Shown piece by piece: positions 5,203 through 43,750 of a stretch of DNA of 45,171 nt. A program made the position numbers and the translations under genes. Source of the DNA: a virus. The DNA lies in the IMG/VR virus record IMGVR_UViG_3300043496_000158, positions 1-45,171 of that record; one strand, written 5' to 3'. Each line of letters begins with the position of its first letter. Positions within the stretch are counted from its first letter, which is position 1. The notes below the pieces were generated by a model. The model was not told the DNA's origin. It saw nothing but the letters and a program-made list of their open reading frames with translations, and ran no database searches.

Positions 5203-5949
5203 ATGAAGCGACTCATCCCCCTGGCCGCCCTGACGGCGGCCCTGATCCTGGCCGCCTGTGGCGGCTCCAAGGGCGAGGCCAGCGTGGCCACGTCCGAAGC
5301 CAGTACCACCACCCAGGCCAGCACCACGCTGGCCCCGACCACCACCACCGTCCCCGCGGTCTTCGCGGCCAAGGTCGTGGATGGCGACACCCTGACCATC
5401 AACACGGGCGAGAACATTCGCATCGTGGGCATCGACACACCCGAGGTCGGTCAGTGCGGCTACGTCGAGGCCAGCGATCGCCTGACCGCGCTGCTCACGG
5501 GCAAGACGCTCACCCTCACGCCGGGAGCCCAGACCGACAAGGACAAGTACGACCGGCTGCTGCGCTACGTGGACGTGGACGGCACCGACGTGGGGCTCAC
5601 CCTCATCCAGGAGGGCCTGGCCATCGCCCGCTACGACAGCCGGGACGGCTACGGAGCACATCCCCGTGAGGCGGCCTACGTTGCTGCCGATGCGGCCAGC
5701 CCCAGCACCTGCCTGCCCCCGGCTCCCGTCACCACTCCAGCCCCCGTCACAGCGGCTCCCCCGCCCGTGACCCCGGCCACCACCGAGGCCCCCGCGGCCA
5801 CCACGCCCGCCACCCAGCCCAAGCCCAGCGGCTCGTACAAGAACTGCACCGAGGCCAAGGCGGCAGGGGCGGCACCGCTGCACCGGGGCGATCCCGGCTA
5901 CTCGTCCAAGCTGGACGGCGATGGCGACGGTGTCGCCTGCGAGTCATGA
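5203..5949 (+). CDS. Lipid-anchored thermonuclease (SNase) with Excalibur domain
   Basis: 248 residues; ATG preceded by CACACACGTACGAAGGAG. Residues 1-19 form a lipoprotein signal with lipobox LAAC (Cys19). A Thr/Ser tether (22-52) leads to a staphylococcal-nuclease domain (about 54-168) with VVDGDT and the RIVGIDTPE motif; R73, D78, E81 and R118 match the family's catalytic and calcium-binding positions. A second Thr/Pro linker precedes a C-terminal Excalibur calcium-binding motif (DGDGDGVACE). The product should be a Ca-dependent DNase/RNase tethered outside the membrane. Membrane-anchored nuclease could cut incoming competitor DNA or extracellular DNA; that use is inference. Confidence 0.9.
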   Translation: MKRLIPLAALTAALILAACGGSKGEASVATSEASTTTQASTTLAPTTTTVPAVFAAKVVDGDTLTINTGENIRIVGIDTPEVGQCGYVEASDRLTALLTGKTLTLTPGAQTDKDKYDRLLRYVDVDGTDVGLTLIQEGLAIARYDSRDGYGAHPREAAYVAADAASPSTCLPPAPVTTPAPVTAAPPPVTPATTEAPAATTPATQPKPSGSYKNCTEAKAAGAAPLHRGDPGYSSKLDGDGDGVACES

Positions 5950-6422
5950 GCGTCGAGGGGCTGCTGCTCGCCGTCTGGCCCGACGGGCAGCACATGTACA
6001 TCGCCAACGAGTACGAGTCGATCCGACGCGTGTTCGAGGAGGGCTCCGCTCTCTTCGATGTCGCCTACTGCTCCCCGTCGCTCGCCTTCCTGGTGGACGA
6101 CGAGGGGCTGCTGAACGGCAGCGTGCTCAACACCACGGCCAGCTGGTTCGGCGCACGGGCCATCTACGGGCCTGTCGTGGTCATCAGCCCCGAGACCGGC
6201 CCCGAAGGTGAGACCTTGCCTGCCGAGGCGGGCTTGTACGAGGCCATGACGCGCTTCGCCAGCCAGTGGCGCCAGGTGTGGGTCGAGGCCGAGAGCGGCG
6301 GGCAGGACCTGAGCGTGTCGGCCGACCCCGACAACATCCCTCCCCCGCAGGTCATCGCGTTCGAGGAGGTCAACACGTTCGAGGACTTCCTACGAGCGAC
6401 GAGCAAGGAGAAGGGCCAGTGA
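5946..6422 (+). CDS. DUF3846-like protein
   Basis: 158 residues; start ATG overlaps the nuclease gene stop (ATGA). The middle (about 40-80) reads FLVDDEGLLNGSVLN...FGARAIYGPVVVI, resembling the pattern of DUF3846, a small family common in phages and plasmids (residue-E/D-EGxLNGLPxN ... I-G-vvi). C-terminal part is acidic. The family is from memory and the match is by eye. Cytoplasmic, role unknown. Confidence 0.6.
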   Translation: MSVEGLLLAVWPDGQHMYIANEYESIRRVFEEGSALFDVAYCSPSLAFLVDDEGLLNGSVLNTTASWFGARAIYGPVVVISPETGPEGETLPAEAGLYEAMTRFASQWRQVWVEAESGGQDLSVSADPDNIPPPQVIAFEEVNTFEDFLRATSKEKGQ

Positions 6423-6730
6423 AGATGAAGAAGGGGACGGCGGTGCTCGGCGCCGACCGTCCCCTGCATGACTGGGCGCACGCCCTGCTACTCGATCGTC
6501 AGATCGACGGGTGGCAGATCGACCGACGCTCAGCCAACCCGGGCTGGTACGTGACCGTGGGTGGCGACACCCAAGGGCCGATGGATCGCTCCGCGGCCCA
6601 GGCCCTGTTGGCCACGTACGAGCCCAGCCAGAAGGCAGTCATCCAGGCGTGCACCACGCTCCTGAGCGGGCTCGACTACGAGCGCCTGGTGGGCATGGCC
6701 AGTGTGCGCCAAGAGTCAAGGGCGGCTTGA
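6419..6730 (+). CDS. Unknown small protein
   Basis: 103 residues from the GTG at 6419, which overlaps the previous TGA and has AGGAG about 10 bases upstream; an ATG at 6425 is the alternative. Sequence has alpha/beta character (HDWAHALLLDRQIDGWQIDRR, GWYVTVGGDTQGPMDRSAAQALLATY) and no membrane segment. Last gene before the promoter at 6727. Function unknown. Confidence 0.65.
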   Translation: MKMKKGTAVLGADRPLHDWAHALLLDRQIDGWQIDRRSANPGWYVTVGGDTQGPMDRSAAQALLATYEPSQKAVIQACTTLLSGLDYERLVGMASVRQESRAA

Positions 6731-6821: not shown

Positions 6822-7466
6822 ATGAGCATCCAGTTGACCATCCCCGATGGCTCGCCCATCGAGTTCATCACCGAGACCCACAGCACGAGCACGAGCGACC
6901 CCTACGTGGTCCTCCAAGGCACGAAGGGCACGCTGATCCGCTGGACATCGATCCAGCCGCCCATCTTCCAGGCCTACTTCGTGGACAGCGGGCGCTACCA
7001 CGAGTTCCTGATCCCCGACGACAAGACGGCGACCGACTTCATCCGCCTGGACAGCGAGGCGGCTCGGGCGGCGTACGACCTGGAGCGGCGGCTGGAGACC
7101 AGGGACGCCGAGGTCCGCTTCTTCCAGCAGGAGCGCGACAGGGCCCGCGAGGCCCACGCCGACGACATCGAGAAGATCGGTGACGCCCTGAACACGGAGG
7201 CCGCCGACCGGGGTTGGTGCAACGAGTACCAGCGGTTCGTGGAGAACCTGAACCGCTCGCTCTCCGTCGAGTTGGCCCTGCCCACCCGGGAGATCCAGGT
7301 CCGCACCACCTACACGGTGACCATCTCCGAGACGGTGCAGGCCCAGGACTACGACGACGCCGTGGAGAACGGCAGCGACTGGGAGTCCCAGATCAGCAAC
7401 CAGCTGCGGTCCCTCTCGGGGCACGTCGTGGTCGAGTACGACCGCTGCGAGGCCGACGACGGCTGA
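6822..7466 (+). CDS. Unknown protein with central coiled coil
   Basis: 214 residues. N-terminal beta-rich part (1-70), a helical coiled-coil stretch (about 75-130, ARAAYDLERRLETRDAEVRFFQQERDRAREAH), and a C-terminal strand-rich part with YTVTISETVQAQDYDDA, a layout common in actinophage proteins of unknown role. Start fixed by CACACACACGAAAGGCGCTCACAGGC-ATG. It has its own promoter and strong terminator, so is likely a single-gene transcript under the 6738-6749 operator. Confidence 0.75.
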   Translation: MSIQLTIPDGSPIEFITETHSTSTSDPYVVLQGTKGTLIRWTSIQPPIFQAYFVDSGRYHEFLIPDDKTATDFIRLDSEAARAAYDLERRLETRDAEVRFFQQERDRAREAHADDIEKIGDALNTEAADRGWCNEYQRFVENLNRSLSVELALPTREIQVRTTYTVTISETVQAQDYDDAVENGSDWESQISNQLRSLSGHVVVEYDRCEADDG

Positions 7467-7500
7467 GCCACCAGATCACCTGTGAGCAGGGTGAATAACA

Positions 7501-7534
7501 GGATTGGCCCGGGGCTTGCGCCCCGGGCCAATCC
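7501..7534 (+). terminator. Strong hairpin terminator
   Basis: A perfect 15-bp stem, GGATTGGCCCGGGGC (7501-7515) and its complement (7520-7534), with a TTGC loop. It lies 35 bases after the stop of the gene at 6822. Confidence 0.9.
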
Positions 7535-7564
7535 CGCACACACACACGAGGCACCCAGGCATAG

Positions 7565-7621
7565 ATGCAACGTGGAGTGAGTCGAGCGTACACACATCCC
7601 GGCCTGGGGAGGCAAGCATGA
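7565..7621 (+). CDS. Possible 18-residue leader peptide
   Basis: ATG at 7565 follows CACACACACACGAGGCACCCAGGCATAG, a full copy of the phage's start-associated leader, yet the frame is only 18 codons (MQRGVSRAYTHPGLGRQA) and ends with TGA overlapping the ATG of the next gene (ATGA). This fits a translationally coupled leader peptide; alternatively the leader motif simply decayed after a new start with GGGGAGG arose at 7618. Confidence 0.4.
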   Translation: MQRGVSRAYTHPGLGRQA

Positions 7622-7959
7622 AGACGATCGTCCGCCGCAGCGACAACGTGGCGGCCCATGACGGCGCCCACAAGGCGCTCACGGCCCGCTCGCACCACAA
7701 GCGAGTGGCCCTGGCTGTCCTGTACTCCACCGTCCAGGCCCTGTCGGCCCAGGACGTGCGCGAGCGCGCCCTGAGCATGAAGCTCGTCGCCACCATCTCG
7801 GCGGCCGAGAGCGTGCGCCGCCGGGTGCTCGAACTGATGGGCGACGGGTACCTCATGGTCCAGGACGAGCGCGGCCCCTCGGGCGCCACCTTCGTCTTCA
7901 CGCCCAAGGGGTTGAAGGCCGCCCGTGTGGCGGCAGATGAACTGTCCCGTCAAGGCTGA
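7618..7959 (+). CDS. Small winged-helix-like DNA-binding protein
   Basis: 113 residues; ATG with GGGGAGG seven bases upstream. N-terminus is basic (MKTIVRRS...RSHHKRVALAVLY). Residues about 60-105 (SVRRRVLELMGDGYLMVQDERGPSGATFVFTPKGLKAARVA) have the helix - wing - helix order of MarR/PadR-type winged helices. A transcription regulator is plausible; no close family recognised. Possibly coupled to the leader peptide at 7565. Confidence 0.65.
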   Translation: MKTIVRRSDNVAAHDGAHKALTARSHHKRVALAVLYSTVQALSAQDVRERALSMKLVATISAAESVRRRVLELMGDGYLMVQDERGPSGATFVFTPKGLKAARVAADELSRQG

Positions 7960-7960
7960 C

Positions 7961-7989
7961 TTGACAGTGAAGTGACCATCCAGTAACCT
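7961..7989 (+). promoter_or_regulatory. Strong sigma-70-like promoter of the DUF932 gene
   Basis: TTGACA (7961-7966), ideal 17-base spacer, TAACCT (7984-7989), directly after the winged-helix gene. The leader then has CACCACACACGAAAGAAGG before the ATG at 8040. This promoter lacks the GACTGTCGGA word found in others, so it may be differently controlled. Confidence 0.75.
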
Positions 7990-8039
7990 GGTGGATGCCG
8001 ACAGCGGCAGCACCACACACGAAAGAAGGCACAGGCACA

Positions 8040-9029
8040 ATGGGAATCGACCAGTACGGCACCGTCGGTGGCGTGGACAGCATGATGAGCGTGCGGTTCA
8101 CCCCCTGGCACGGCGTGTCGGACATGAAGAAGCGAGTGGAGTTCAACATCGAGTCCGGGCGTCAGGCCCTGACCATCGCCGGGATCGACTGGGAGGTCGC
8201 CAAGACCAGCCTGGGCGAGTTCATGCCCGGTGCCGACCTGGCCGACGAGCACTGCGTGGTCACCCGCAAGGACAACGGCGCCGTCCTCGGCGTCCACCGG
8301 GCCAGCTACCAGGAGATCCAGAACACGGCGCTGGCCGACGTGGCCGACGGCGTGATCCTCGCCCGTCCCGGCGCCTTCGTGGAGTCGGCCGGTGGCCTGT
8401 TCAAGGGCAAGGTCACCTGGGCGCTCGTTCGCCTGCCCGACTCGACGGTGTACTTCGGTTCCGACGGGGCCGAGCGCCACGAGCGCTACATCCTCGTGAG
8501 CACCAGCCACGACGGCAGCTACGGCTTCACCATCCGGCCCACCGACGTGCGGGTCGAGTGCATGAACACCATCTCGATGGCGTGGCGGGGCAACAGCGCC
8601 ATGTACAAGGTGCGCCACACCACCAACGCGCTGGACTACGTGAGCGAGGCCCAGCAGGGCCTGGCCGTGAGCCTGGCCAACTGGGAGGGCTTCGACCAGG
8701 AGATCAAGCGCCTGCTCGACACCCCGCTGGACACGGGCGAGTTCCTGACCAGCTTCGTGCCCCACATCATCGGGGAGCGCCCCGCCGACGAGGGCCGCAG
8801 CCTCACCGCCTGGGACGAGAAGTTCACCGGGATCGTGGAGGCGTACCACGAGGACCACAACGAGGCCATCGTGGACACGGCCTGGGGTGCGGTCAACGCC
8901 TTCAACGAGTTCGAGGTCTGGGCCACCAAGGTCCGGTCCAAGAGCCTGGCCGAGGCGCAGATGGTCCGGGTCCTGACCGAGGACTTCCCGCTCACCCGCC
9001 AGGCACTGGCGCTGGTGGGCAAGGGTTGA
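8040..9029 (+). CDS. DUF932 / TIGR03299 phage-plasmid protein
   Basis: 329 residues. The order MGIDQYG...WHGVSDMKK, ALTIAGIDWEVAKT, VVTRKDNGAVLGVHRASYQEIQN, VRVECMNTISMAW matches the DUF932 (phage/plasmid-like TIGR03299) family in layout and usual length. Members are widespread on phages, plasmids and integrated elements; a role in DNA metabolism or interference with host processes has been supposed but not shown. Own promoter at 7961 and own terminator at 9038: an independently expressed single-gene unit. Confidence 0.85.
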   Translation: MGIDQYGTVGGVDSMMSVRFTPWHGVSDMKKRVEFNIESGRQALTIAGIDWEVAKTSLGEFMPGADLADEHCVVTRKDNGAVLGVHRASYQEIQNTALADVADGVILARPGAFVESAGGLFKGKVTWALVRLPDSTVYFGSDGAERHERYILVSTSHDGSYGFTIRPTDVRVECMNTISMAWRGNSAMYKVRHTTNALDYVSEAQQGLAVSLANWEGFDQEIKRLLDTPLDTGEFLTSFVPHIIGERPADEGRSLTAWDEKFTGIVEAYHEDHNEAIVDTAWGAVNAFNEFEVWATKVRSKSLAEAQMVRVLTEDFPLTRQALALVGKG

Positions 9030-10921: not shown

Positions 10922-11193
10922 GCGAAGACGACGAGATGGCCAAGCAGGTGGCGAACGTGGTGGTGGGCCTGACCCAGCTGCGCCTGTTGATCCAGGACTT
11001 CCGGGTGTCGATGTCCCAAGGCATGGACGACCTGGAGAACCAGCTGGCTGGGGTTGCCCGTGAGGTTCGGGCCTACAACCAGGCGACGACCATCACCATC
11101 AGCAACGAACTGGCCGCGCTCGACAGCCGATGGGAACGACGGTTCCGCCAGGTGGAGGATCGCCTGGCCGACGTGGAACGGAGGCGGGCGTGA
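10918..11193 (+). CDS. Coiled-coil protein
   Basis: 91 residues; ATG with a very clear CACACACAAGGAG leader. Heptad-like helices at about 10-60 (VVVGLTQLRLLIQDF, DDLENQLAGVAREVRAY) and 68-90 (SRWERRFRQVEDRLADVERR). Together with the next gene, a membrane protein with similar helices, it could form a two-part complex; inference only. Confidence 0.65.
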   Translation: MSEDDEMAKQVANVVVGLTQLRLLIQDFRVSMSQGMDDLENQLAGVAREVRAYNQATTITISNELAALDSRWERRFRQVEDRLADVERRRA

Positions 11194-11390
11194 CCGGCAC
11201 TGACCTGGCGGTCATCGCCACCATCGTGGCCGGTTACGTCACCGGCATCTTCGCCACGCTGCACTACCTGGCCGGGCGCATCGATCGCGTGGCCGAGCGC
11301 ATCGACAAGCTGGCCGACGACGTGCGCGAGATGAAGGTGACCCTTGGCCGCATGGACGAGCGCATCAAGCACCTGGAGCCCCAGGCATGA
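11190..11390 (+). CDS. Single-pass membrane coiled-coil protein
   Basis: 66 residues from the GTG overlapping the previous stop. Residues 4-26 are a membrane helix (LAVIATIVAGYVTGIFATLHYLAG), then a charged amphipathic helix (RIDRVAERIDKLADDVREMKVTLGRMDERIKHLE). This layout is shared by small phage membrane proteins, including hemolysin XhlA-like proteins that pair with holins. A holin-associated or anchoring role is possible; its place in the early operon argues for caution. Confidence 0.6.
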   Translation: MTGTDLAVIATIVAGYVTGIFATLHYLAGRIDRVAERIDKLADDVREMKVTLGRMDERIKHLEPQA

Positions 11391-11836
11391 ACCGCAACCT
11401 GGAGAGCATCGCCATCGGCGCGGCGCGCGAGTGCATCCGTCAGGGGGTGGACGAGCACGCGCTGGTCAACCTCCTGAGCGCCCACGACCACACCTACGCC
11501 TTGTGGCAGGGGCACCTGAGGCCGTCGTTCGAATCGATCCTGACGCTCGGGCGCATGGTCGAGCCCGAGGTCAACCGGAACGGCTTCCGCCGCACGCCGG
11601 TCACGTTCGCGAACCAGACCAGCGAGCCCACCAACTGGATGGAGATTCCCTTCGCCCTGGCTCGCCTGGTGACCGAGGGCGTGCGGGCCACGCCGTCCGA
11701 GTACGCCAAGGCGTTCCTGGACATCCACCCGTTCCTGGACGGCAACGGGCGAGTGGCCTGGCTGCTGTTCAACTGGCAGGGCGGGGTCTTGGACGACCCA
11801 CTGCCCCTGCCCGAGTTCTACCCGGTGGCGTCATGA
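11387..11836 (+). CDS. Fic/Doc family protein
   Basis: 149 residues. Residues 114-122 read HPFLDGNGR, the Fic active-site motif that binds the nucleotide and carries the catalytic His. The usual last Arg of HPFx(D/E)GNGRxxR is Trp at 125. A helical region precedes it (86-112) and PLPLPEFYP follows. Fic proteins transfer AMP or other phosphate groups to target proteins. I see no (S/T)xxxE(G/N) inhibitory helix in it or in the neighbour, so control is unclear. Overlaps both neighbours by four bases in the 9091-12129 operon, next to the integration module. The target is unknown; a host-takeover or lysogenic-conversion role is inference. Confidence 0.8.
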   Translation: MNRNLESIAIGAARECIRQGVDEHALVNLLSAHDHTYALWQGHLRPSFESILTLGRMVEPEVNRNGFRRTPVTFANQTSEPTNWMEIPFALARLVTEGVRATPSEYAKAFLDIHPFLDGNGRVAWLLFNWQGGVLDDPLPLPEFYPVAS

Positions 11837-12173: not shown

Positions 12174-12338
12174 GTGGCGCAGGTGAAGACCCAGTGGACG
12201 ACTTTCCACGAGAAGGTCGTGGCCGACCGGCTGGCCCAGGGGCTGCCTGCCCAGGTGGAGGACCAGGAAGCTCTGGACGATCTGGTGGCACTCGTGCGCG
12301 CCGGGCTGCCACCCCGGAAGATCACACCCGGAACCTGA
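12174..12338 (+). CDS. 54-residue leaderless gene, possible excisionase/directionality factor or regulator
   Basis: GTG start lies seven bases after the -10 box with no Shine-Dalgarno. The product (VAQVKTQWTTFHEKVV ... EDQEALDDLVALVRAG ... PPRKITPGT) is helical, with a basic Pro-rich tail. It ends inside the 3' end of the serine integrase on the other strand (17-base overlap), so transcription from its promoter runs antisense into the integrase gene. Position and size suit a recombination directionality factor or an integrase regulator; no family is recognised and codon pattern supports coding. Confidence 0.6.
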   Translation: MAQVKTQWTTFHEKVVADRLAQGLPAQVEDQEALDDLVALVRAGLPPRKITPGT

Positions 12339-13701
12339 TCTCCAGGCGGTCGATCGCCACCTGCTCGCTCCAGCGGGCCTTCGTCCCAGGCTTGACCCTG
12401 ATCCACTCGATGTAGCGGTGGAGGATCGCTCGCTTCACGTGCTCGTCCAGGTCCTCCCAGACCTGGGACAGCGGACCCTGCTCGCCATCGATCAGGCGAT
12501 CCATGCTGGACCGTGGCGCCTTGGCTGCCTCGGCTTCCGCTTTCTCCTGGCGTAGCGCAGCCAGGCGCATGTCGTAGTCGGCCTTGGCGATGTCCTGGCG
12601 GATGTCGAAGAGCAGCGCGATGTCGGCCTCGATCTCCACGGTCGCGCGCGTCCCTGCGGTCTCGACCATGACGCCCGTGATCGGCACCGGCTGGCACTCG
12701 ACCGCCTTGAACAACTCGTTCAGGATGCTGGCCTCGGCCTTGCCATCCAGGGTCAAGCGCCCGCAAGCGTCGTTGCTCGCGCTCCGGTGGCAGTGCCACC
12801 CAGGCCGACCGTTGCTGGAAGAACGGACGAGCAGCGAGTCGCATCGGTCGCAGAGCAGCAGGCCGTGGAGGATGTGCGTACGTCGTCGTCCGGCGCGCGG
12901 GTGCTTGCGCCAGCGAGCCAGCGCCACGAGAACAGCGGCCTGCTCGGCCGGTTGCACAATCGGGTCCCAGTAGCCCTGGCCGATGACTTCGCCGTTGTAC
13001 GTGTGCCTGCCACTGATCTTCGGGTTGGTCACCCAAAGCTTCACGCCCGACGAGTCCCAGCGCTTCCCGCCGGTCGTGGTGATCCCCTCGCCGTTCAGCC
13101 AGCGGGCGATGCTGTTGCAAGACGCCCCCTCAGCAACGCGGCGCACGATCTCACGACCGATCTCGGCCTCACTCTCGATCCCGTTCAGGTCGCGGTCGTA
13201 ACCGAACAGGCGGCGCCCACCCAGCTGCGTGTGACCGGCCGCGCGCTCATCCTCCATCGTCTCTCGGACCCGCCGACTGATGACCATGGCCTCGCGCTTC
13301 GCTGCGCCCAACTCGTCAACGTAGGCCTCGCGCCCCCGGGCGGTGGTCAGGTCGATGTCGCCCATCACGAAGACCTTCCCGTGGTTCTCTGCTAGATCGA
13401 TGAGATGCTCACCCTCGTGGAGCTTGCGCGTCATGCGGTCGGTCGCGCTGGTCACGATCCCATCGATGATGCCCGCCTCTACCTCGCGGAGGTTGGCATC
13501 GAAGACCGGCCGCTCGTTGCGCGAGTAGTGGCTGGCGCCGGTGTCGTTCTCCACATCGATGCGGAGCAACGTCACGTCGTTGTCCGCCTGCCAGCGTTCG
13601 AGGAAGCCCCCCTGCCGCCCGACGCCCTTACCCTCGCCCGCCTTGTCGTCGCTGATCCGAACTTGGCCGACGAGCCGCTTGCCCTTGAACTTGTTCGCCA
13701 T
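12322..13701 (-). CDS. int: Large serine recombinase (serine integrase)
   Basis: 459 residues. Resolvase-type catalytic domain at about 9-150: VGQVRISDD with nucleophile Ser17, SRNERPVF, and the ATDRMTRK arginine motif. Recombinase domain about 170-280 (GGRRLFGYDRD, SIARWLNGEGITT, SGVKLWVTNPKISG), then a zinc ribbon with CDRC...WHC...C (about 308-340), a coiled-coil arm and a C-terminal tail (VDRLEIRFRV). Complete, so probably active; it would join attP to attB without host factors. ATG at 13701 lacks a Shine-Dalgarno but lies seven bases after TAGCAT (13714-13709), so the mRNA may be leaderless. Faces away from the tyrosine recombinase across 112 bases. Confidence 0.95.
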   Translation of the reverse strand: MANKFKGKRLVGQVRISDDKAGEGKGVGRQGGFLERWQADNDVTLLRIDVENDTGASHYSRNERPVFDANLREVEAGIIDGIVTSATDRMTRKLHEGEHLIDLAENHGKVFVMGDIDLTTARGREAYVDELGAAKREAMVISRRVRETMEDERAAGHTQLGGRRLFGYDRDLNGIESEAEIGREIVRRVAEGASCNSIARWLNGEGITTTGGKRWDSSGVKLWVTNPKISGRHTYNGEVIGQGYWDPIVQPAEQAAVLVALARWRKHPRAGRRRTHILHGLLLCDRCDSLLVRSSSNGRPGWHCHRSASNDACGRLTLDGKAEASILNELFKAVECQPVPITGVMVETAGTRATVEIEADIALLFDIRQDIAKADYDMRLAALRQEKAEAEAAKAPRSSMDRLIDGEQGPLSQVWEDLDEHVKRAILHRYIEWIRVKPGTKARWSEQVAIDRLEIRFRV

Positions 13702-13708
13702 GCCAACG

Positions 13709-13766
13709 ATGCTACGCTCTCAACCTGGTCTATGAGAAATCGGCTGGCTGTTCTCAGATAGACCAG
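13709..13766. promoter_or_regulatory. Candidate attP / operator between the two integrases
   Basis: CTGGTCTAT-GAGAA (13725-13738) and TTCTC-AG-ATAGACCAG (13751-13766) form a long inverted repeat around a 12-base centre, the symmetry and size of a serine-integrase attP, directly upstream of that gene. The left arm overlaps the putative integrase -35 (TTCTCA on the minus strand, 13738-13733) and is followed by its -10, TAGCAT (13714-13709), so binding of integrase or a repressor would also control the gene. GACCAGTC at 13761-13768 is repeated in part at 13774-13780. Confidence 0.55.
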
Positions 13767-13813
13767 TCTCACTGACCAGCACTTTCATCCACCACACACA
13801 CCGAGAGGCATCC

Positions 13814-14722
13814 ATGACCACCATCCACGACTACTTGGAGTGGCAGCGCACGAAGCGCGGCCGGTCCCCGCTCACGATCGCCAAGTACCGCGAGATCCTG
13901 ACCGCCTTCGAGACCGCGCTCGATGGTGACCCGCTGGAGACCGCCACGACCGAGGACGTGGAGACGTTCGCCAACCGGGAGCGCCGGGGCGGCAAAGACG
14001 GAGCGCCCGCCACCATCGCCACCGACGTGAAGATCCTGTCGGGCTTCTACACCTGGGCGGGGCATCGCCATGGGTGGGCCAACCCGGCCGCCCTGGCGGG
14101 CCGTCCGAGCGTCCACAATGCCAACCCGCATCCCGTGCCCGCCGATGTGTGGGCGACACTCTGGAAGCACCCCCTGCCCACCGATGCTCGCGTGGCCCTG
14201 GGTGTCGCCTACTTCTGTGGACTGCGTCGCGAAGAGGTCGTTCGCTTGACCATCGGCAACGTTGATCTTGCCAACCGCCGACTGGTCAACTTCACCCGCA
14301 AGGGTGGGGGACGCGACGTGTTCGACTACGGCGAAGTCCTGGACTTCCTGCGTAATCGCTTGCCTGAACGTTCAGTCAACACCGATAAGTTCGAGCGCTC
14401 CCTAGAACTGCTAGCAGCACATGAGCCAGCATCGGAGGGCGATCGCCTACTACCGTGGCCGTCGGTGCGACCGCAGGCCTTCAACCGTCGCTTGCCCCGC
14501 TGGCTCGTCCGAGCGGGACTGACCGAGGGTGCCTGCACGCCACACATGCTGCGCCACGCCTTCGTGACCAACATGCTGGAAGCCGGGGCTCCACTCCACG
14601 TGGTGTCAAGCCTGGCTAACCACGCCAGCCCGACGGTCACGATGCGCTACGCCAAGGTGGCAGGTGGTGCTCTGGCGACCCTGCGCCGCGAGGCCGAAAC
14701 TGTGGGTTACCTGAGTGCCTGA
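13814..14722 (+). CDS. Tyrosine recombinase (XerC/integrase type)
   Basis: 302 residues. N-terminal SAM-like DNA-binding domain (1-95) and catalytic domain with the full set R138 (GLRREE), K163 (TRKGG), H244 and R247 (HMLRH), H270 (LANH) and nucleophile Y279 (TMRYAKV). Size and sequence are close to XerC/XerD-type recombinases. The ATG follows CCACACACACCGAGAGGCATCC, the phage leader. With an intact serine integrase next door it may be a second integrase, or resolve genome multimers, or invert or excise DNA elsewhere. No truncation is seen. Confidence 0.95.
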   Translation: MTTIHDYLEWQRTKRGRSPLTIAKYREILTAFETALDGDPLETATTEDVETFANRERRGGKDGAPATIATDVKILSGFYTWAGHRHGWANPAALAGRPSVHNANPHPVPADVWATLWKHPLPTDARVALGVAYFCGLRREEVVRLTIGNVDLANRRLVNFTRKGGGRDVFDYGEVLDFLRNRLPERSVNTDKFERSLELLAAHEPASEGDRLLPWPSVRPQAFNRRLPRWLVRAGLTEGACTPHMLRHAFVTNMLEAGAPLHVVSSLANHASPTVTMRYAKVAGGALATLRREAETVGYLSA

Positions 14723-14747
14723 GAGGGAAGGAACACGGGCGGTGACC

Positions 14748-14764
14748 GTCAGGGCCAGCCTGAC
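14748..14764 (+). terminator. Possible terminator after the tyrosine recombinase
   Basis: GTCAGG-gccag-CCTGAC, extended imperfectly by GGCGGTG.../...CACCGTC on both sides, starting 25 bases after the stop. Confidence 0.5.
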
Positions 14765-14806
14765 CACCGTCCATGCTCATCGCGGGGAGTTTGTGAGAAA
14801 GTTGCT

Positions 14807-14871
14807 TTGACGACGTGTCACGACAGTCACGACCGTGGTAGAGATCGTTCTGACAGGTCGCGTGACCTGTC
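14807..14871 (+). promoter_or_regulatory. Promoter/operator or attP-arm region before the HTH gene
   Basis: A TTGACG box (14807-14812) is followed by two direct GTCACGAC repeats (14817-14824, 14826-14833) and a perfect inverted repeat GACAGGTC-gcgt-GACCTGTC (14852-14871). The HTH gene starts 58 bases later with CACACACACGAGGAAGG. The palindrome suits a dimeric repressor; the direct repeats beside a tyrosine integrase gene could also be arm sites of an attP. Confidence 0.5.
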
Positions 14872-14928
14872 GGCAGGGTCTGGAAGCCACCCCGACCCCC
14901 ACACACACGAGGAAGGAAGACTGTTCTG

Positions 14929-15294
14929 ATGGCAACGACCACCACGTCTGTGCCCCTGGATGCGAAGACCAGTGAGCAGATCATCGCCATGTACAAGGCG
15001 GGCGAGAAGCTAATCGCGATCACCAAGGCCACGGGCGTGCCCCGCGCCAGTATCTACTGGGTGCTGCGCAAGGAGGGGATCACGCCAGATCGCATCGCCA
15101 AACCTTCGTCGGAGTCCATGACTGTGATCGAGGTCCTAGACCGCCTGCGTACGACGGAGCGGGAGAACGGCGAACTGCGGTATCGCGAGGGTCAGCTGGT
15201 CGAGCAGATCCAGGCGCTGCACGAAGAGATCACCGAGTTGAAACGTCAGCTGCGCGATGCCCGCAAGGGGCGCCCCCGAGCAGCTGCCAGCTAG
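14929..15294 (+). CDS. HTH DNA-binding protein with coiled coil
   Basis: 121 residues. Residues 15-50 (SEQIIAMYKAGEKLIAITKATG...SIYWVLRKEG) are a resolvase/Hin-type helix-turn-helix; residues 65-110 are a coiled coil for dimerisation (TTERENGELRYREGQL...ITELKRQL). The tail is basic. It sits behind a symmetric operator (14852-14871), so it is a good candidate for an autoregulated repressor or early regulator. The 181-base gap after it holds only GC-rich hairpins around 15345-15410 and a leader before the next gene. Confidence 0.8.
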   Translation: MATTTTSVPLDAKTSEQIIAMYKAGEKLIAITKATGVPRASIYWVLRKEGITPDRIAKPSSESMTVIEVLDRLRTTERENGELRYREGQLVEQIQALHEEITELKRQLRDARKGRPRAAAS

Positions 15295-15475
15295 CACCAA
15301 CGGTGCCCCACACGGGCGTCCGGCTCCCTTGCCAACGGGGGGTCGGGCGCCCGCTTCGCGTCCGGGTGTCTGCTGCCTGTCTACCCCTGTTCAGGTGGGG
15401 TTGCTTTCTGCACCTACCGCTGGACACTCCCCAACGTCAGGCCTACGGTCAGACCCCACACGCACGACGAGGGGG

Positions 15476-16273
15476 ATGCCGGTGCCGGGAGTCCAGGTTG
15501 ACCGGGGCAACAAGAAGTTGCTGGTCACCCAGTCTTTCCTCCAGGACTTCCAGCGCTGCCCCGAGCGGGCACGACGCCAGATCGTGGACCCGAAGCTCAG
15601 CTTCAACGACGCCACCTGTCTGGGCTCAGCCGTACACCTGTTCGTGGAGTACCGGATGCAGGGCAAGCCCTACATCGAGGCCCACCGGGTGGGCCTGGAG
15701 TTCCTGCACGAGATGACCGAACGGGAGGACTTCGTCTGGGCCGTGGTCCAGACCCTGCCCACCCTGCTGGCCCACTACGACACCTGCTGCATGTCGTTCG
15801 ACATGCACGTGGTCCCGCAAGTGTCACCGGGGGGCGACATCGAACGCACCCTGCGGGCCGACCTGTGCACGTACAAGGGCTGGCTCATCCAGCTGGAGGG
15901 CACGCCCGACTACGTGGACCCGTTCGGCCGGGTGTGGGACTGGAAGACCAGCCGCGACGACTTCTCCGTGTTCGAGGCCAACAACTGGATGATCCAGCCG
16001 ACGGCCTACACCTTCCTGGCCAGTCAGGACCGAGACAGCCCGGTTACGGAGTTCACCTACGCCGTCGCCATCAAGCCGAGCGGGGTCATCCAGCTGCTCG
16101 ACGTGTCGCGGTCGGACGAGGACTGGGCCTGGCTGGCCAGGATCGCCACCGATGTGGTCGAGCTACTGGCGCTGCCGGGCCGCTGGCCCGTGCGCCACGG
16201 CCACTACCTCTGCTCCGCCAAGTGGTGCCCGTGGTGGGACACCTGTCGCGGAGCCTCTGTCAAGCCTGAGTAG
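15476..16273 (+). CDS. Cas4/RecB-like Fe-S PD-(D/E)XK exonuclease
   Basis: 265 residues; ATG preceded by CACACGCACGACGAGGGGG. N-terminus has TQSFLQDFQRCPERARR with Cys28, then GSAVH (H54), the nuclease core EGTPDYVD (D145) and VWDWKTS (D155, K157), and the C-terminus has three Cys at 246, 251 and 257 (CSAKWCPWWDTC). One N-terminal plus three C-terminal Cys is the Fe-S pattern of Cas4 and AddB. It would resect DNA ends in phage recombination or replication. No cas genes or CRISPR array are nearby, so a spacer-acquisition role is not suggested. First of the replication block. Confidence 0.88.
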   Translation: MPVPGVQVDRGNKKLLVTQSFLQDFQRCPERARRQIVDPKLSFNDATCLGSAVHLFVEYRMQGKPYIEAHRVGLEFLHEMTEREDFVWAVVQTLPTLLAHYDTCCMSFDMHVVPQVSPGGDIERTLRADLCTYKGWLIQLEGTPDYVDPFGRVWDWKTSRDDFSVFEANNWMIQPTAYTFLASQDRDSPVTEFTYAVAIKPSGVIQLLDVSRSDEDWAWLARIATDVVELLALPGRWPVRHGHYLCSAKWCPWWDTCRGASVKPE

Positions 16274-16969: not shown

Positions 16970-17109
16970 GGCGGGCCAAGCCGGTGCGCACAGCCCGGTA
17001 CGTGTGCCTCGTGCGAGGGTTCGAGTTGCTGGTCACCGACGACCCTGCCGAGGTCGTGGCCCTGCACAACCTCGTCGCGGAGTGCCTGACGGTTCGCTGC
17101 GCGTCATGA
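16966..17109 (+). CDS. 47-residue protein
   Basis: GTG overlaps the previous TGA and its own TGA overlaps the next ATG. Basic N-terminus (VRRAKPVRTARYVCLVRG) then FELLVTDDPAEVVALHNLV. A tight coupled gene in the replication operon; function unknown. Confidence 0.6.
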   Translation: MRRAKPVRTARYVCLVRGFELLVTDDPAEVVALHNLVAECLTVRCAS

Positions 17110-18098
17110 CCCTCAGCCCGCCCGAGGCTCGGGCGATGCTGGAGGCCAAGCGGACCATGGCCATCCGGGCGACCTACAAGCAGGTCACCGATCGGTACGA
17201 GTTCATCCGCCCCTTCGGGATGGCGGCCGAGGACCTGTTGGACTGGATGGTCGACTCGGGCGAGCGCCTGGAGTTCGGGCTGCCCGCCCTGGACTCCCGC
17301 CTGCGGGGCGTGGGTCGAGGCGAGTTGTGCTTCATCACCGGCAAGGCCCACTCGGGCAAGACCCAGCTGCTGCTGCACCTGCTGTGCAACGTGGCCGAGC
17401 GCCGCATCCTGTACTTCACGCCCGACGAGACCGACACGACCGTGCTGTGCAAGCTGCTGGCCATCCAGCGGGGCATGGACGTGGGGCGCCTGGAGCGCAA
17501 GCTGCGCGAGCAGGACGTGCTCACCCACAACCTGGTGCGGCGGGTGGCGGCCGAGTTCCCCAACCTCATCCTCATCGACCAGCCGCTCACGTTCCCCGAG
17601 ATGGAGCGGGCGCTGCACGAGGCCGAAGAGCACTGGGGCGATCGCTGCCAGGGCGTGTTCGTGGACTACCTGGATCTGTTGCCCGGGGACGGCGACTACA
17701 CCGGCACGAAGAGCAAGGCGATCGCCTTGAAGCGCTGGACCAAGACGTTCGACGTGCCCGTGGTGGCCGTGCACCAACCCCGTCGAGGCGGTGCCCGTCG
17801 TGGCCAGGAGATCGGCATGGACGACATGCACATGGGGGGCGAGACGGAGGGGACCTTCGTGCTCGGCGTCTACCGCAAGCGCGACGACGAGTACCTGGAG
17901 GCCGAGGACCGGGCCGCCCACATGAACACGATCAGCGTGAACATCAGCAAGAACAAGCGCCCGCCCTGCCACAAGGGCGTGTTCGACTTCCACCTGGACG
18001 AGGACACGGGCTCCATCCGCGAGCTACAGCGGGGCGACCTGCAAGGCCCGGTGCGCCTGCGCTCGGTGAGCGAGGCCCAGCAGTGGCGCCGTGGCTAG
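17106..18098 (+). CDS. DnaB-like replicative helicase / RecA-fold ATPase
   Basis: 330 residues. Walker A GKAHSGKT at 79-86, sensor-like YFTPDE at 103-108, Walker B GVFVDYLDLL at 183-192 with D187, and VAVHQPRR for the H4/Q motif. After about 60 N-terminal residues it has only the C-terminal RecA core of DnaB, without the primase-binding N-terminal domain, like short phage DnaB-type or RepA helicases. It should unwind the fork together with the AEP primase at 18300. Start ATG overlaps the previous stop; the stop (TAG) overlaps the stop of the minus-strand gene at 18095. Confidence 0.88.
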   Translation: MTLSPPEARAMLEAKRTMAIRATYKQVTDRYEFIRPFGMAAEDLLDWMVDSGERLEFGLPALDSRLRGVGRGELCFITGKAHSGKTQLLLHLLCNVAERRILYFTPDETDTTVLCKLLAIQRGMDVGRLERKLREQDVLTHNLVRRVAAEFPNLILIDQPLTFPEMERALHEAEEHWGDRCQGVFVDYLDLLPGDGDYTGTKSKAIALKRWTKTFDVPVVAVHQPRRGGARRGQEIGMDDMHMGGETEGTFVLGVYRKRDDEYLEAEDRAAHMNTISVNISKNKRPPCHKGVFDFHLDEDTGSIRELQRGDLQGPVRLRSVSEAQQWRRG

Positions 18099-22036: not shown

Positions 22037-25000
22037 TCAGGTGGCAATCGCTTCATCCTCCACCAGGGTGTTGCCCTTGGTGGGCTGCGTAGCCAGGTCA
22101 GGCTTGCGCTTCGACTTGCTCGGGATGACCCCCAGGTTACGCAGGTCGTTGACCGTGCTCGACAGCGCGTCGGCTCGACGGAAGACCTCGTTCTCCTGGT
22201 CCTGAGGCGTGTTGGTGCGGAACTGCACCCCACCCAGATAGCTGGCGTAGGTGCTCATCGCTCGGTTCTGGTACTTGGCCTCGGAAGGGACCAGTCGTCG
22301 GATCTGGCTGAGGGCAGGCAGGTACTGGCCCACGGCGTAGGCGGCGTTCTCGCGCATGTACCACTTGCCGTCCGGCCCCTTCTGGGCCTGCCCGGTGGCC
22401 GACAGCACCTGGGCGAAGCCGGGGATGATCTCCCACGTCTTGGGCATGGGCACCAGCTTGGGCGTGAGGGGCAGGTCCGAGAAGAACTGCTTGCCCGCCC
22501 ACATCTCGATCGGCGTCTTGATGAGGGGGTTGACGTTGGCCAGCATCTGGCCGGGGTCGGTGATGCGGAACAGGTCCTTGAAGGGCAGGTCGATCGTCCC
22601 GTACATCTGCTGGCCGCCACTGGTCCAGGGCAGCCGGGTCATCTGCTGCTCCCCGAAGTAGCTGGGAACGATGTTCTCTTCGTCCGTGCCCAGCTGGAGG
22701 TTGCGGGCCACGGTCTGGTACCGGAGGATCGCCTTGCCCGGGTCGGTGAAGATGGCCTCCAGCTGGAGGGGCACGTTCTTGCGGGTCCACGTGTAGAACG
22801 GGATGATCCGCTTGGCCACGTTGCGCTCGAAGCCGGACAGGTCCGTGTAGTCGAAGTGGTACTTGGACACGTCGGCCAGGATCTGGTCGGCCAGGCTGGA
22901 GTCCATGACCGCCTGCGTCACCCGATCGGCGTTGGCCGCCGTGACCTGATCCCACCCGGCGATGCGGGTCCCGTCCTCCAGCACGATGCGCCCGGACGTG
23001 ACCGCCTTGTTCAGCCGGTCCCAGGCCAGGCTCCCCCGCAGCATGGGCTCGGTCACGTTCTCGCCCAGCTTGCGCGTCGTGTACGGGAGCAGGAAGGCCT
23101 TGTCCGGGTTGCGGATGCCCGCCAGCGGGTTGAGGCTGGCGTGCTCCAGACCGGTGGCGAACTCTTCGTGGAACACGCCCGAGCGCATGATGCCCAGGCG
23201 GTTGATGACATCCCACTGCACCCGCTCGGCGGCGGTGAGGCTGGCCTTCGACTCGGTGGTGTAGCTCTTGCGCAGCAGGTTCCCCATGCCCCGCATGGAC
23301 TTGATGACCTCGGCGTCGGCCAGCCAGTTGTTGAACATGCCACCCATCACGTTGCGGATCTGGAAACCGGACGAGGACGTGAGCCAGCCCTTCATCCAGT
23401 TGTTGACGTGATCGAACATGCTCAGGAACGAGCGCATCCCCTCACTGGTGTTCGCCCCCTTGGCCGTCATGTTGGCGATCACGTCGACCACGTCAGCCGG
23501 GGCCTGGTAGCCGAAGCCGAAGCCCTTCCAGCCGTCCTGGAGGGTCTGGGCCAAGAAGGGGGCCATCTTGTCCAAGCCCGCCTGGTTGAAGTCCCGGAAC
23601 TCCTTGGCCGTAGCGATCGACGCCTTCAACTCGTTGGCCTTGCCTTCCAGGTGGGCGATCTGGGCTTCCTGATCGAGCCCCTGGGCACGCAGCTGGTCGC
23701 GCATGGCGTAGGCCTCGGCCGCCTGGTCCCAGTGCTCGGCCTGCTGGGCGGCCAGGCGCTCGCGCACCACGTCGCGCTCGTAGGCGGCCACGGCCCGGTG
23801 GCCGACCGCCTTGTTGGCGGCGGCCTTGGCCTTGGCCAGATCGTCGTCAGCCATGGCGAACTGGGTCTGCACCGACGTGAGCGCGTCGTTGGCCATGGGC
23901 AGCTTGCCCTGGGCGTCCCGCAGAGCGTCCTCAGTGGCCCGGTACGCCGGGTTGGGCACCGTCTTGCCTGCCTCGTAGGCGGTGCGCTGAGCGGCGATCT
24001 CAGCGGCGTTCCCGCCCGTGCGGTAGGTGACCTGGTTAGTGGGCAGCGCGTGCAGGAACGGGTCGACGCTGTCGGCCATGTTCCAGAACATGATGACATC
24101 GCCGTCGCGGGCCAGGGAGGCTCGGGCGGTGTCGAGCATGTCCTTGTACACGGCGCCCATCTCGGCGCTGCTGCGCCGCAGACGAGCCGACCAGATGGAC
24201 CCACCCACCTGCCCGGCGAACTCCTTGAAGCCGTCGGTGGGGATCTGGTTGAGCCGCTGGGTGATCTCGTCGTAGGGGAAGCGGGCGGCGATCCCTCCCT
24301 CGTTGACCAGATGCTGCCCGGCCAACTCCAGGGCGTCGTCGTAGCCCATGGTGATGCCCTGGCCCAGGCCGGTCTCCTGGATGGAGCGGGCCAGGTCCAT
24401 GATGTCGGCCGACTGGCCGTACTGGTCGCTGTTCCGCAGGCCGTTGGCCACGGCCTCGATCAGGTCAGGACGAGCCTCGTGGATGCGACGGGCGACATCG
24501 GCTGTGAACATGTCGTAGCCCGGCCCGGCCGGGTGAGTCCCGGCCTCGACGGCCCCAGCGGCCAGGCTCTCCATGTCATGGGCGCCGGGACCGAAGGCCA
24601 GCACCCGATCAGGCGTGGTGGCCATGGTCCCCTCGATGATGCCGCCCTCCCGCCCGGCGAAGGTGGCGCCCACGGTCGCGTCGGAGGCGGTGGACGGCCC
24701 CCAGCCGAAGTCCACCCACATCGAGTCCATCTTGGCCAGCTGGTCCTTGACCGGGAACGGAGCGGCCGGGTTGGGCTTGCCCCCCTCGTAGCCGTGGTAC
24801 CAGCTGTTGCCGCCCTCGGTCGGGTTGGGCAGGGCGGCCTGCTTGTGGGTGGGCGCCCACACCCGACTGTCCGGGTCGAGCAGGGCGTGCAGCCCGCTCT
24901 CGGGTCCGTCGGCCAGGACCTGGTCGATGTAGTCGAGCGTGTCCGCCCCGAACTCGTCGTCCATGTAGCGGACCATGGTGGCGAAGCGCTGGTTCATCAT

Positions 25001-28000
25001 CTCGCCCACCCGCTTGGCCTCTGGCCCCGGCCCCATGGTCTTGGCTGCCATGACCCGCCAATCGATGAAGCCCGACACCGGGTCGAGCGACTGGATGGCG
25101 CCCATGCCCACAAGCTCCCGCCACTGGTTGCCCAGTCGGCTGGACATCTCCGACGGCGTGATGTTGCTGTTCTTCAACAGGTTGTCCCAGGCGAACACGC
25201 CCGTCCCCTGCTTGCCGTAGCCGGTGGATGAGCCCCCGTAGAACAGGCGATCAACCATCCCGGCGATGTCGCTGCCGTCGGGCGGTGCGTTGGCGGCATC
25301 AGCCGGGTTGAGTCGGTACAGGGTGCCGTCCTTGGCCACGGCCAGATCGTCGGGTCCCCAGTTGGCCGTGCCCAGGAACACGTCGGTCAGGGCCTGGTTC
25401 GAGTAGGCGTCGGCCACGGCGTCGATCGTGGCCTGATCCCCCGCCGTCAACACTTCCCCGACAGTCCCGACTCCCTCGGCCATCTCCTGGGCGTGCATCC
25501 ACCCGCCCGGCCCCTGAAAGGCCACGCTCTTGGGCTGGCCGAACCCGAGCACCTGGTACAGGTTGTCGGCCGTAGCGGCGTAGTGGGCATCGCTGGCCGG
25601 GACCACATGGCGGTACACGCCATCGGCCCCCTGATAGAAGCCAGGGGCAACCTCGGTGGCCAGGAACTGGCCAGGATCAGCAGGGGCGACATCGGCCCCC
25701 AGGGTGAAGCCGACCTTGTTCAGGGTGGACTCCATGCGCTTGGTCTCGGCCTCGATCAGGGCCGCTCCCTGCTGGGCCGGGTCCACCCCAGTCAGGGCGT
25801 CTGCTGTCGCCCCCACCGTCTGCATGGCCTCGGTGGCGGTGTCCATCACGCTCTGGACAGTCGGGACCTGACCCTTGGCCTTCAAGATGGTCAGGACACT
25901 GCGCCGGTTGGCCATGCCCTGCTGGGCCGTCTCGTAGGCCGTGCGGGCGACATCGAACTCTTCGGCCGTGGTGGCGTTGCTCATGGCCACGTCAGCGTCG
26001 AGCGCCTGCTGCTGGAACCCCTTCATCTCCGAGCGCAGGACCTTGGGGTCGAGCGTGGCCGGGAACTCCTGGCCCAAGTCAGACAGTTCCTTCATGGCCG
26101 CCATGCCCGAGCCCTCGATGCGATCAGCCAACTGGGCCAGCTGCTCAGGGGCCAGGTCCTCGACCGGCTGGCGGAACATCGAGACGCTGACCTCGTTGGC
26201 CGGGCCGTAGAACGGGGTGTCCGGGTGGAAGGACTCGCCCATCTCGGCCACCTGACGGATCTCGTCGGCCACCACCCGGCCGTTGGCCGCCTGCTCCATG
26301 ACCATGGGCACCCGCTCGTGCGCGGTCATCGCCTGGCGCACCTTGGCCAGGGCCTCGTCACGCTTGGCCGCCAAGGCCCCCATGTCCTCGAAGGACAAGG
26401 CGCCCTTCTCGGTCACGCCTCGGGGCGTGGTACTCAGCTTCTGGGTGGCGTCAGCGATCTCCTGGTCGACGGCAGCCAGGTCGGCCTTGGCCGAAGTCAC
26501 GGCGTCGTCCAGGAGGGAGCGGCGCTCGGCCGCCGCATCGGCGGCCCGGCCCATCCGCTTGCCGTGCTCGGTGGCTCGGCGCAACGTGTCCTCGGCCACC
26601 CGCATGTCCTCGGCCGCCCGCTCGGACATCTGGTCGAGCCGGGCCAGCTTGGTCTCGTACTCGGCCTGCTGCATCTGGCCGGTGAGGCGGGCCTGGTGGA
26701 GCAGGTCCTTCTGGTCCTCGATGTCGCGCAGGGCCGTGGTCTTGGCCCCGATGTCCTTGTCCAGGTTGTCGATCGAGTCGGCCAGGTCCTTGGTGACCTT
26801 GCGCACCGACACCCCGGCCTCGCCGCCGGTCATGGTGGTGGGCAGCCACTCGGCGTACTTGTCGGCCTGGCCGAAGGCCCGCAGGTAGTTGATCTGGTGG
26901 ATCTGGCCGGTGCGCTGGGACACGTCGCGCATGTAGTTGGGCAGGGCCTTGTAGGCGTTGCGCTCGTACCACTGCACGGCTTCGGGCCCGTAGACCTGAT
27001 CGACGTGCGACTGGATCTGGCGCTCCAGGCTGGGAGCCACTGTGCCGTCAGCCAGCTGCTCGCCGGGCTGGATCAGCTTGGTGGCCTCGTTGCCCTTGAC
27101 CACTTCGTCGCCCACATCGAGCGCGGCCTTCTCGAATCCGGCTCGGGCGTTGCCGGTCATGGCTCGCGGTGCTCCGAAGGTCGTGCCTCGGCGGCCCTCG
27201 CGCATGGCTCGGAACTCGTCGCTCATGATGCGAGGGACGTAGGGGCGGCCTTCCTCGGTGGCGTTGGCGATGAACTGCTCCCCGATGCCCCGGTGCTTGG
27301 CCATCTCGGCCGTGTCCCCAGGGATGGCATCCAGCCAGCCGCCGATGTTGTTGACCACCTTCTGCTGCTGGGGGTCGAGCTTGGTGAAAGCCTCGCCCGG
27401 CAGGTTGTTGATCGTGCCCCGCTCCCCCAGGGCATCGAACAGGGCCTCGCCCTCGATGCCTGCCTTCTTGGCGTCGCGCAGGTGCCCCTGGAGGGTCACG
27501 GCCAACTCCCGCTCGGCGGCGCTGGCCGTGGCCTTGCGGCGGGCCGTGGAGTCCAGGATGCGGGCGCCCCGCTTGATCGTCTCGGCGTCACCCGAGCGCA
27601 GCATCTGCTTGGCCTCGAACAGGCTGCCGCCCAGCGCCCGTCCGACCGGCGTCTTGGACAGGCCGGTGCCGATCGTCTCACCGGCGCGGGCGACACCCCG
27701 CCCGATGGTCTCGGTGCCGGGGATCAGGTAGCTGGGTCCGCCCTTCACCGGGATGCGGGCGCTGATGCCGTGACCGAAGTTCTTGATCTGCTTGGCGCTC
27801 AGTTCCTCACCGGCGATCTCCCCCGAGGCCCGGGCGACCTGGCGAAGCTCGTCGTTGCTCAGACGGCTGGCGCCCTTGCTCACCCGTTGCAGTACCTCGC
27901 CCCACTCGGCCGCGCTCTTGCCGCCGACCGCCGCTCCCTTGGCGGCGGCCTCGTCGGCCAGGTTGGTGACCATGCGGGTCACCCCGGCCGTCTTGCCCGC

Positions 28001-43054: not shown

Positions 43055-43750
43055 TCACTCGTAGAGCGAGTAGACCCGGGCCCGGTGGTTGCGCTTGCCG
43101 ATCAGGGCGGGCTCGTCGCTGGCCCCGTTGATGAACTTGGCCCACCAGCCGCCGGTGCCGGTGTCGTCCACGGGAAGCTCTTCGGGCACCCGCTGGTGCA
43201 CGAACTGGCGGCCGTGGTGGGCCAGGGCCAGGGCCATGACCCGGTCATCGAAGGGCGAGCCCGACATGCGCCCCTTCTCGTCGCGCACGTAGCCCTTCAA
43301 CTCGGTGATGGTCTCAGCCTCGTGCAGCACGACCTCGCCGTTGCGCAGGGCCTCGTCCAGCTGGCTGATGATGAGGGGCTTGGACGTGCGGCTGGTCTTG
43401 AAGCCGAACTCTTCGGTGGTGCGGTTCCAGGCGTGGTTCAGCTGCTTGCGCCGGAAGATCGAGCGGTAGCCCAGCTGGCGCAGCACGGTGAGGGTGGCGA
43501 TGCCGGTGTTGTTGGACTCGACCACGGCCAGGGCGCCCAGGTAGGCCATGCCCAGGCGGAAGGTCATGAGGGCCAGCAGGTCGGGGGTGAGGATGTCGCA
43601 GAAGACGCACACCTGCTCGCCCGTCTCGTGGTCGAGGACCTGGATGGCGCTGTTGTCGCCGTGGCCCAGCCCCTCGGACGTGTCCACGCCCAGGATGTAC
43701 ACCCGGCCGTGCTCGGGCTCGGCGTAGACCTTGACCGGGGGCAGGTCCAC
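43055..43750 (-). CDS. Terminase large subunit, nuclease half
   Basis: 231 residues from a GTG sharing one base with the stop of the ATPase gene (TAGTG). VYILGVDTSEGLGHGDNSAIQV carries the first catalytic Asp of the RNase-H-like nuclease, ALAVVESNNTGIATLTVL the Glu, and SPFDDRVMALALAHHG the last Asp. These are the three metal-binding sites of TerL nucleases. It cuts concatemers to make packaging ends. In most phages this domain is fused to the ATPase; here it is a separate gene. Confidence 0.85.
   Translation of the reverse strand: MDLPPVKVYAEPEHGRVYILGVDTSEGLGHGDNSAIQVLDHETGEQVCVFCDILTPDLLALMTFRLGMAYLGALAVVESNNTGIATLTVLRQLGYRSIFRRKQLNHAWNRTTEEFGFKTSRTSKPLIISQLDEALRNGEVVLHEAETITELKGYVRDEKGRMSGSPFDDRVMALALAHHGRQFVHQRVPEELPVDDTGTGGWWAKFINGASDEPALIGKRNHRARVYSLYE

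Follow-up and report, generated by a model that had tools for sequence, protein, structure and literature searches.

A serine integrase beside an intact, probably superseded tRNA-site tyrosine integrase in a T7-like podovirus

Phages often swap their integrases, but the intermediate is rarely seen. The stretch of DNA analysed here (the window) is a 45,171-bp IMG/VR virus record, a T7-like podovirus contig that carries the T7-like portal, scaffold and major head genes together with the terminase genes on the minus strand and a replication module on the plus strand. It raises the question why one phage encodes two integrases of different chemistry and which of them integrates the genome. The initial annotation had described an intact serine integrase and an intact tyrosine recombinase diverging from a 112-nt gap, and its coordinates and strands proved exact: each gene is one uninterrupted, full-length frame. 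The locus comprises the following features:

12322-13701, minus strand: large serine recombinase (serine integrase), 459 aa, with the catalytic residues and four zinc-ribbon cysteines present
13702-13813, unstranded: divergent intergenic gap, 112 nt; position of the tRNA attP core in 8/11 related lineages, here without a tRNA fragment
13720-13771, unstranded: interrupted dyad D1, centre TG at 13745-13746; candidate serine attP or operator of the divergent promoters (putative role)
13814-14722, plus strand: arm-less ('simple') tyrosine recombinase, 302 aa, with R138, K163, H244, R247, H270 and Y279; predicted ancestral integrase of the family
14811-14860, unstranded: interrupted dyad D2, centre GT at 14835-14836, located after the tyrosine gene and before the HTH gene; second candidate for an attP, or else a regulatory site (putative role)
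14929-15294, plus strand: small HTH (resolvase-type, HTH_7-like) and coiled-coil protein; conserved partner that immediately follows the tyrosine gene in five lineages
15257-16273, plus strand: PD-(D/E)XK nuclease, following gene in the conserved cassette
17004-18098, plus strand: DnaB-like helicase, neutral anchor of the synteny survey

The serine enzyme consists of a Pfam Resolvase domain (residues 11-157, E 8.8e-11), a Recombinase domain (177-257, E 2.1e-14) and a zinc ribbon (278-318), which at E 0.0013 stays below the Pfam cut-off and has its four cysteines at 284, 287, 304 and 313. Alignment with three actinophage serine integrases showed Arg15, Ser17 and Asp88/Arg89/Arg92 to be invariant, in agreement with the nucleophile and zinc ribbon proposed initially, and the protein matches the integrase family PHROG 95 (E 2e-61). 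With a catalytic domain containing the serine nucleophile and the Arg residues, a recombinase domain and a four-cysteine zinc ribbon, it is predicted to be a large serine recombinase of the integrase type. The nearest relatives found were serine integrases, mostly of actinophages, at ~30-35% identity; relatives on viral contigs reach only 28-35%, and single-sequence scans of viral contigs revealed no close relative of either the serine or the tyrosine integrase.

The tyrosine enzyme (Phage_integrase, E 1.2e-20) is XerC/D-like by sequence and keeps the R-K-H-R-H-Y set, with all six residues named in the initial annotation. The full set is found in 8 of the 12 tyrosine lineages; three have Arg at the position of K163, and residues of the set are changed in L168. 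The SAM-like domain begins at residue 5, and in an AlphaFold2 model (pLDDT 88) residues 1-293 align with residues 77-356 of lambda Int. Because this whole-length alignment covers the core-binding and catalytic domains of lambda Int, the enzyme lacks an arm-binding domain and is, judged from the model, a 'simple' arm-less tyrosine recombinase in the sense of PMC8138268. The model also aligns with XerA, XerH, Cre and the integrase of mycobacteriophage Brujita (Z about 16-19). The latter (PDB 5vfz) is an arm-less simple tyrosine integrase that matches in sequence and fold, with the difference that relatives of the window have tRNA 3' ends as attP. A housekeeping XerC or XerD was rejected, as TIGR02224 reached 86 bits against a cut-off of 335 and TIGR02225 73 against 330.

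A protein of this fold might also serve as a regulator instead of a recombinase, like MrpR in Bacillus phage SPbeta. There, labour is divided between the serine recombinase SprA, which excises, and MrpR, a protein of the tyrosine recombinase fold (PMC10516654), and SroF, a repressor of phage phi3T with the same fold, was among our fold matches. However, MrpR has lost the catalytic Arg and His, a loss that would be expected for such a repressor, whereas all six residues are present in the window's enzyme. As most lineages likewise keep the full set, we rejected an MrpR-type repressor and consider a regulatory role very improbable.

The premise that phages normally carry one integrase holds as a rule, but mixed pairs have been published. 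Gordonia phage Utz encodes an intact Int-Y (gene 31) and an intact Int-S (gene 33), and the attP of the related Howe Int-Y is absent from its genome (Pope et al. 2017, PMC5559632). It thus resembles the window in having intact integrases of both chemistries close together with the attP of a related Int-Y missing, but it is a Gordonia phage, compared here by its published description. The staphylococcal phage TEM126 of S. aureus also has one predicted integrase of each catalytic type, whose roles were unclear to its authors (PMC6507118). The Gordonia phages Fireball and Wizard belong to Wizardvirus; in Fireball, a tyrosine integrase that is a distant match of the window's enzyme lies one gene away from a serine integrase gene. 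In contrast to the window, this serine gene lacks the catalytic N-terminal domain, as has been published for Wizard. Both integrase types are also present on G035, a contig outside the family, and a tyrosine recombinase accompanies the serine integrase in 2 of 26 other viral records carrying a related serine enzyme. Such pairs in one phage are thus uncommon but known, and the window is not unique.

To learn which of the two genes is the newcomer, we gathered relatives with the portal, with the tyrosine enzyme and, against bias, with the DnaB-like helicase. The tyrosine recombinase, the HTH partner, the nuclease, DnaB and the primase are syntenic in many contigs. Of 32 contigs that were anchored on DnaB and extend at least 4.4 kb upstream of it, a set that includes near-duplicates, 17 have the tyrosine gene; where present, it lies 1.6-3.3 kb upstream of DnaB on the same strand. 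It occupies an equal place and strand in 11 other lineages. A small HTH protein follows it in many lineages, and homologues of the window's own HTH/coiled-coil protein do so in five including the window, once with a 4-nt gap. Over the 12 lineages the distances of the tyrosine recombinase and DnaB are strongly correlated (Mantel r 0.907, p 1e-4), and the two have supported subclades in common. No serine recombinase was detected in ~68 distinct family records, many of which are partial, so that this absence is not proof.

Taken together, synteny, co-divergence with DnaB and the missing serine recombinase indicate that the tyrosine gene belongs to the ancestral core of this group, to which the serine gene was added; from the comparative evidence, the tyrosine recombinase would be the ancestral integrase of this podovirus family and the serine gene its newcomer. 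The reverse order, with the tyrosine gene as recent cargo, had been considered in the initial annotation and is ruled out by synteny and co-divergence; of the two, the tyrosine gene is the conserved one.

The ancestral attachment site was approached with a strict T-arm motif search for tRNA 3' ends (T-arm plus acceptor) beside the tyrosine gene. In 8 of the 11 other lineages (L104/L105/L106/L162 as one lineage, L108, L207, L114, L115, L155, L165 and L168) a tRNA 3' end lies at most ~150 nt upstream of the gene; those of L108 and L207 are on the opposite strand. The first start codon listed for the gene lies before the tRNA fragment in L155 and L165, but both have a later in-frame ATG (6174 and 5952, respectively) between the fragment and the conserved domain. 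Over 32-33 nt, the fragments of L162 and L114 are identical to the 3' ends of tRNA-Pro in Acidimicrobiia genomes, whereas the reversed control pattern gave no match among the genomes listed. Against a reference of 39 Acidimicrobiia tRNAs, taken mostly from a single genome, the best matches beside the gene extend into the acceptor end, for Pro (L162, L114), His (L168), Val (L115) and Gly (L155, L165). L165 also contains two tandem near-copies of a tRNA-Gly-like T-arm plus acceptor upstream of the gene (5854-5915), perhaps a relic of repeated integration or of a site change.

The layout in the relatives corresponds, as read from their sequences, to the classical attP-int arrangement of tRNA-site integrases, and the adjoining tRNA 3' ends mark the tyrosine recombinase as a tRNA-site integrase of the arm-less type. 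Thus, tRNA-site integrases appear to occur in a little-known podovirus family, whose sites in two cases match tRNA-Pro genes of the Acidimicrobiia, a group with poorly known temperate phages. The tRNA matches of the relatives, together with one Acidimicrobiaceae MAG contig, point tentatively to a host on the Acidimicrobiia side. A search of bacterial genomes for prophages with the portal profile returned only phage-like or short MAG contigs, and no attL/attR was found in them.

In the window, an attP core matching a tRNA 3' end is missing: no T-arm with all stem pairs was found anywhere in the 45 kb, nor any tRNA gene, and Rfam gave only sub-threshold chance matches in the region. The single match to a tRNA is a 14-nt chance match to the anticodon region inside the serine gene. 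The position of the relatives' attP is taken by the 112-nt gap, followed by the serine gene. L107, L161 and L193 likewise lack a recognisable tRNA fragment beside the tyrosine gene. A second recombinase occurs only in lineages without the fragment (the window and L107, 2/4 vs 0/8; Fisher p 0.09), an association that is suggestive only. In L107 (G010) a second, distantly related tyrosine recombinase adjoins the conserved one (5458-6453 and 7298-8287).

The tRNA sites bear on the proposal that the tyrosine enzyme became a Cre/Xer-like resolver or circularisation enzyme for multimers of the phage genome, leaving integration to the serine enzyme. Its arm-less XerC/D- and Cre-like fold would suit this role, and Xer and Cre are examples of dimer resolvers among the simple tyrosine recombinases (PMC8138268). 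However, the tRNA attP beside the gene in relatives marks integration and the NCBIfam XerC score is far below its cut-off. The option of a resolver, raised initially, is therefore disfavoured for the family and less clear for this copy, and we judge it decidedly unlikely.

More weight is due to two working systems, in which the serine enzyme would use an attP of its own and the tyrosine enzyme a non-tRNA attP near 13814 or in 14723-14928, so that two alternative sites in the host would be open to the phage. Both proteins are intact with their catalytic residues, strong dyads lie on both sides of the tyrosine gene (see below), and the three other tRNA-less lineages make a non-tRNA attP possible in the window too. 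On the other hand, the tRNA attP of the relatives is absent and positive evidence for a second tyrosine site is lacking, so that two working systems are not supported and replacement is more likely. Of this suggestion in the initial annotation, the origin holds best, since a tRNA-site tyrosine enzyme in the relatives and an integrase-type serine enzyme fit two integration systems; that both work today we regard as rather unlikely.

The attP of a serine integrase is a pseudo-palindrome of ~50 bp around an asymmetric dinucleotide. D1 in the gap is an interrupted dyad of 50 bp with an asymmetric TG at its centre; it has 9-bp outer arms (CTGGTCTAT/ATAGACCAG) and 16/24 symmetric positions, a value reached over its full span by 0 or 1 of 2000 dinucleotide shuffles of the gap. 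D2, within the 206-nt gap from the tyrosine gene to its HTH partner, has 17/24, with 0/2000 shuffles as good. In the attP of serine integrases, half-sites of ~25 bp carry a distal zinc-domain motif, at positions 16-24 in A118 (PMC3783163). The outer arms of D1 (positions 13-21) lie a few bases inward of this position; D1 adjoins the serine gene, and D2 fits the A118 spacing better. D1 is not unique, as a similarly strong dyad (16/24) lies upstream of the tyrosine gene in L162, a relative without the serine gene. The dyads at the place of D2 in L108 and L207 are compact hairpins, probably terminators, and thus say nothing for or against recombination at D2. A promoter/terminator consensus scan found nothing. 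D1 would be the best candidate for the serine attP, with D2 as the alternative.

The strong dyad in the one gap common to both divergent genes would also suit a regulated switch, in which either recombinase could flip or remove a promoter or the site of its counterpart within the 112-nt gap. The flanks of the gap showed no clear inverted pair of recombination sites, however, and the recombinase pair occurs in no family relative. The switch proposed initially thus has no positive evidence on its side, and we consider it highly improbable.

The reading we favour as probable is that the phage gained a serine module on the attP side of its tyrosine gene and is now integrated by it, while the intact tyrosine enzyme persists without its ancestral attP. 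Judging from the anatomy, the tyrosine recombinase of the relatives would recombine the tRNA 3'-end attP that shortly precedes its start codon with the corresponding tRNA gene of the host. In the lineage of the window, a serine gene would have arrived on this side, probably with its own attP (best candidate D1), and the tRNA attP would have been lost. The serine integrase would then integrate the phage by recombining attP and attB across the asymmetric central dinucleotide, using D1 or D2. The tyrosine enzyme probably no longer performs the ancestral tRNA-site integration without its attP, and may be a module not yet lost or one retained for another recombination. With a branch length like that of its orthologues and with its catalytic residues in place, it shows no visible decay, which would mean that the replacement happened recently or that the protein has found a different use. 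Such a use could be that both enzymes are active, with the tyrosine recombinase acting on a new phage-borne site, e.g. the flanking dyads, to control or complement the serine integrase. Integration would then be regulated by two recombination chemistries, a variant that we hold to be unlikely.

With the replacement reading, the window would show the old tRNA-site integrase still intact, its attP gone and a different integrase at that position. What it adds to the published pairs is evidence from relatives that the ancestral tRNA integrase is the tyrosine enzyme, with a second enzyme lying where its attP should be.

Several further observations were made in the window. A Fic/Doc family protein is encoded near the serine integrase (11387-11836, plus strand), and the preceding ORF (11130-11390) has no family match that marks an antitoxin. 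A 2147-aa open frame (22037-28480, minus strand) is nearly without family match except for a weak tail-fibre match. The contig ends (1-59 and 45113-45171) have a 59-nt direct repeat in common (92% identity) that sits within more widely repeated sequence, and it may be a circular overlap or a repeat where the assembly broke. The two halves of the large terminase subunit are separated: one ORF (43750-44703, minus strand) encodes the ATPase, and a distinct stretch downstream of it (43142-43699, minus strand) matches the nuclease half. L137 likewise has a short ATPase ORF (299 aa), whereas MW202803 has a single ORF of 560 aa.
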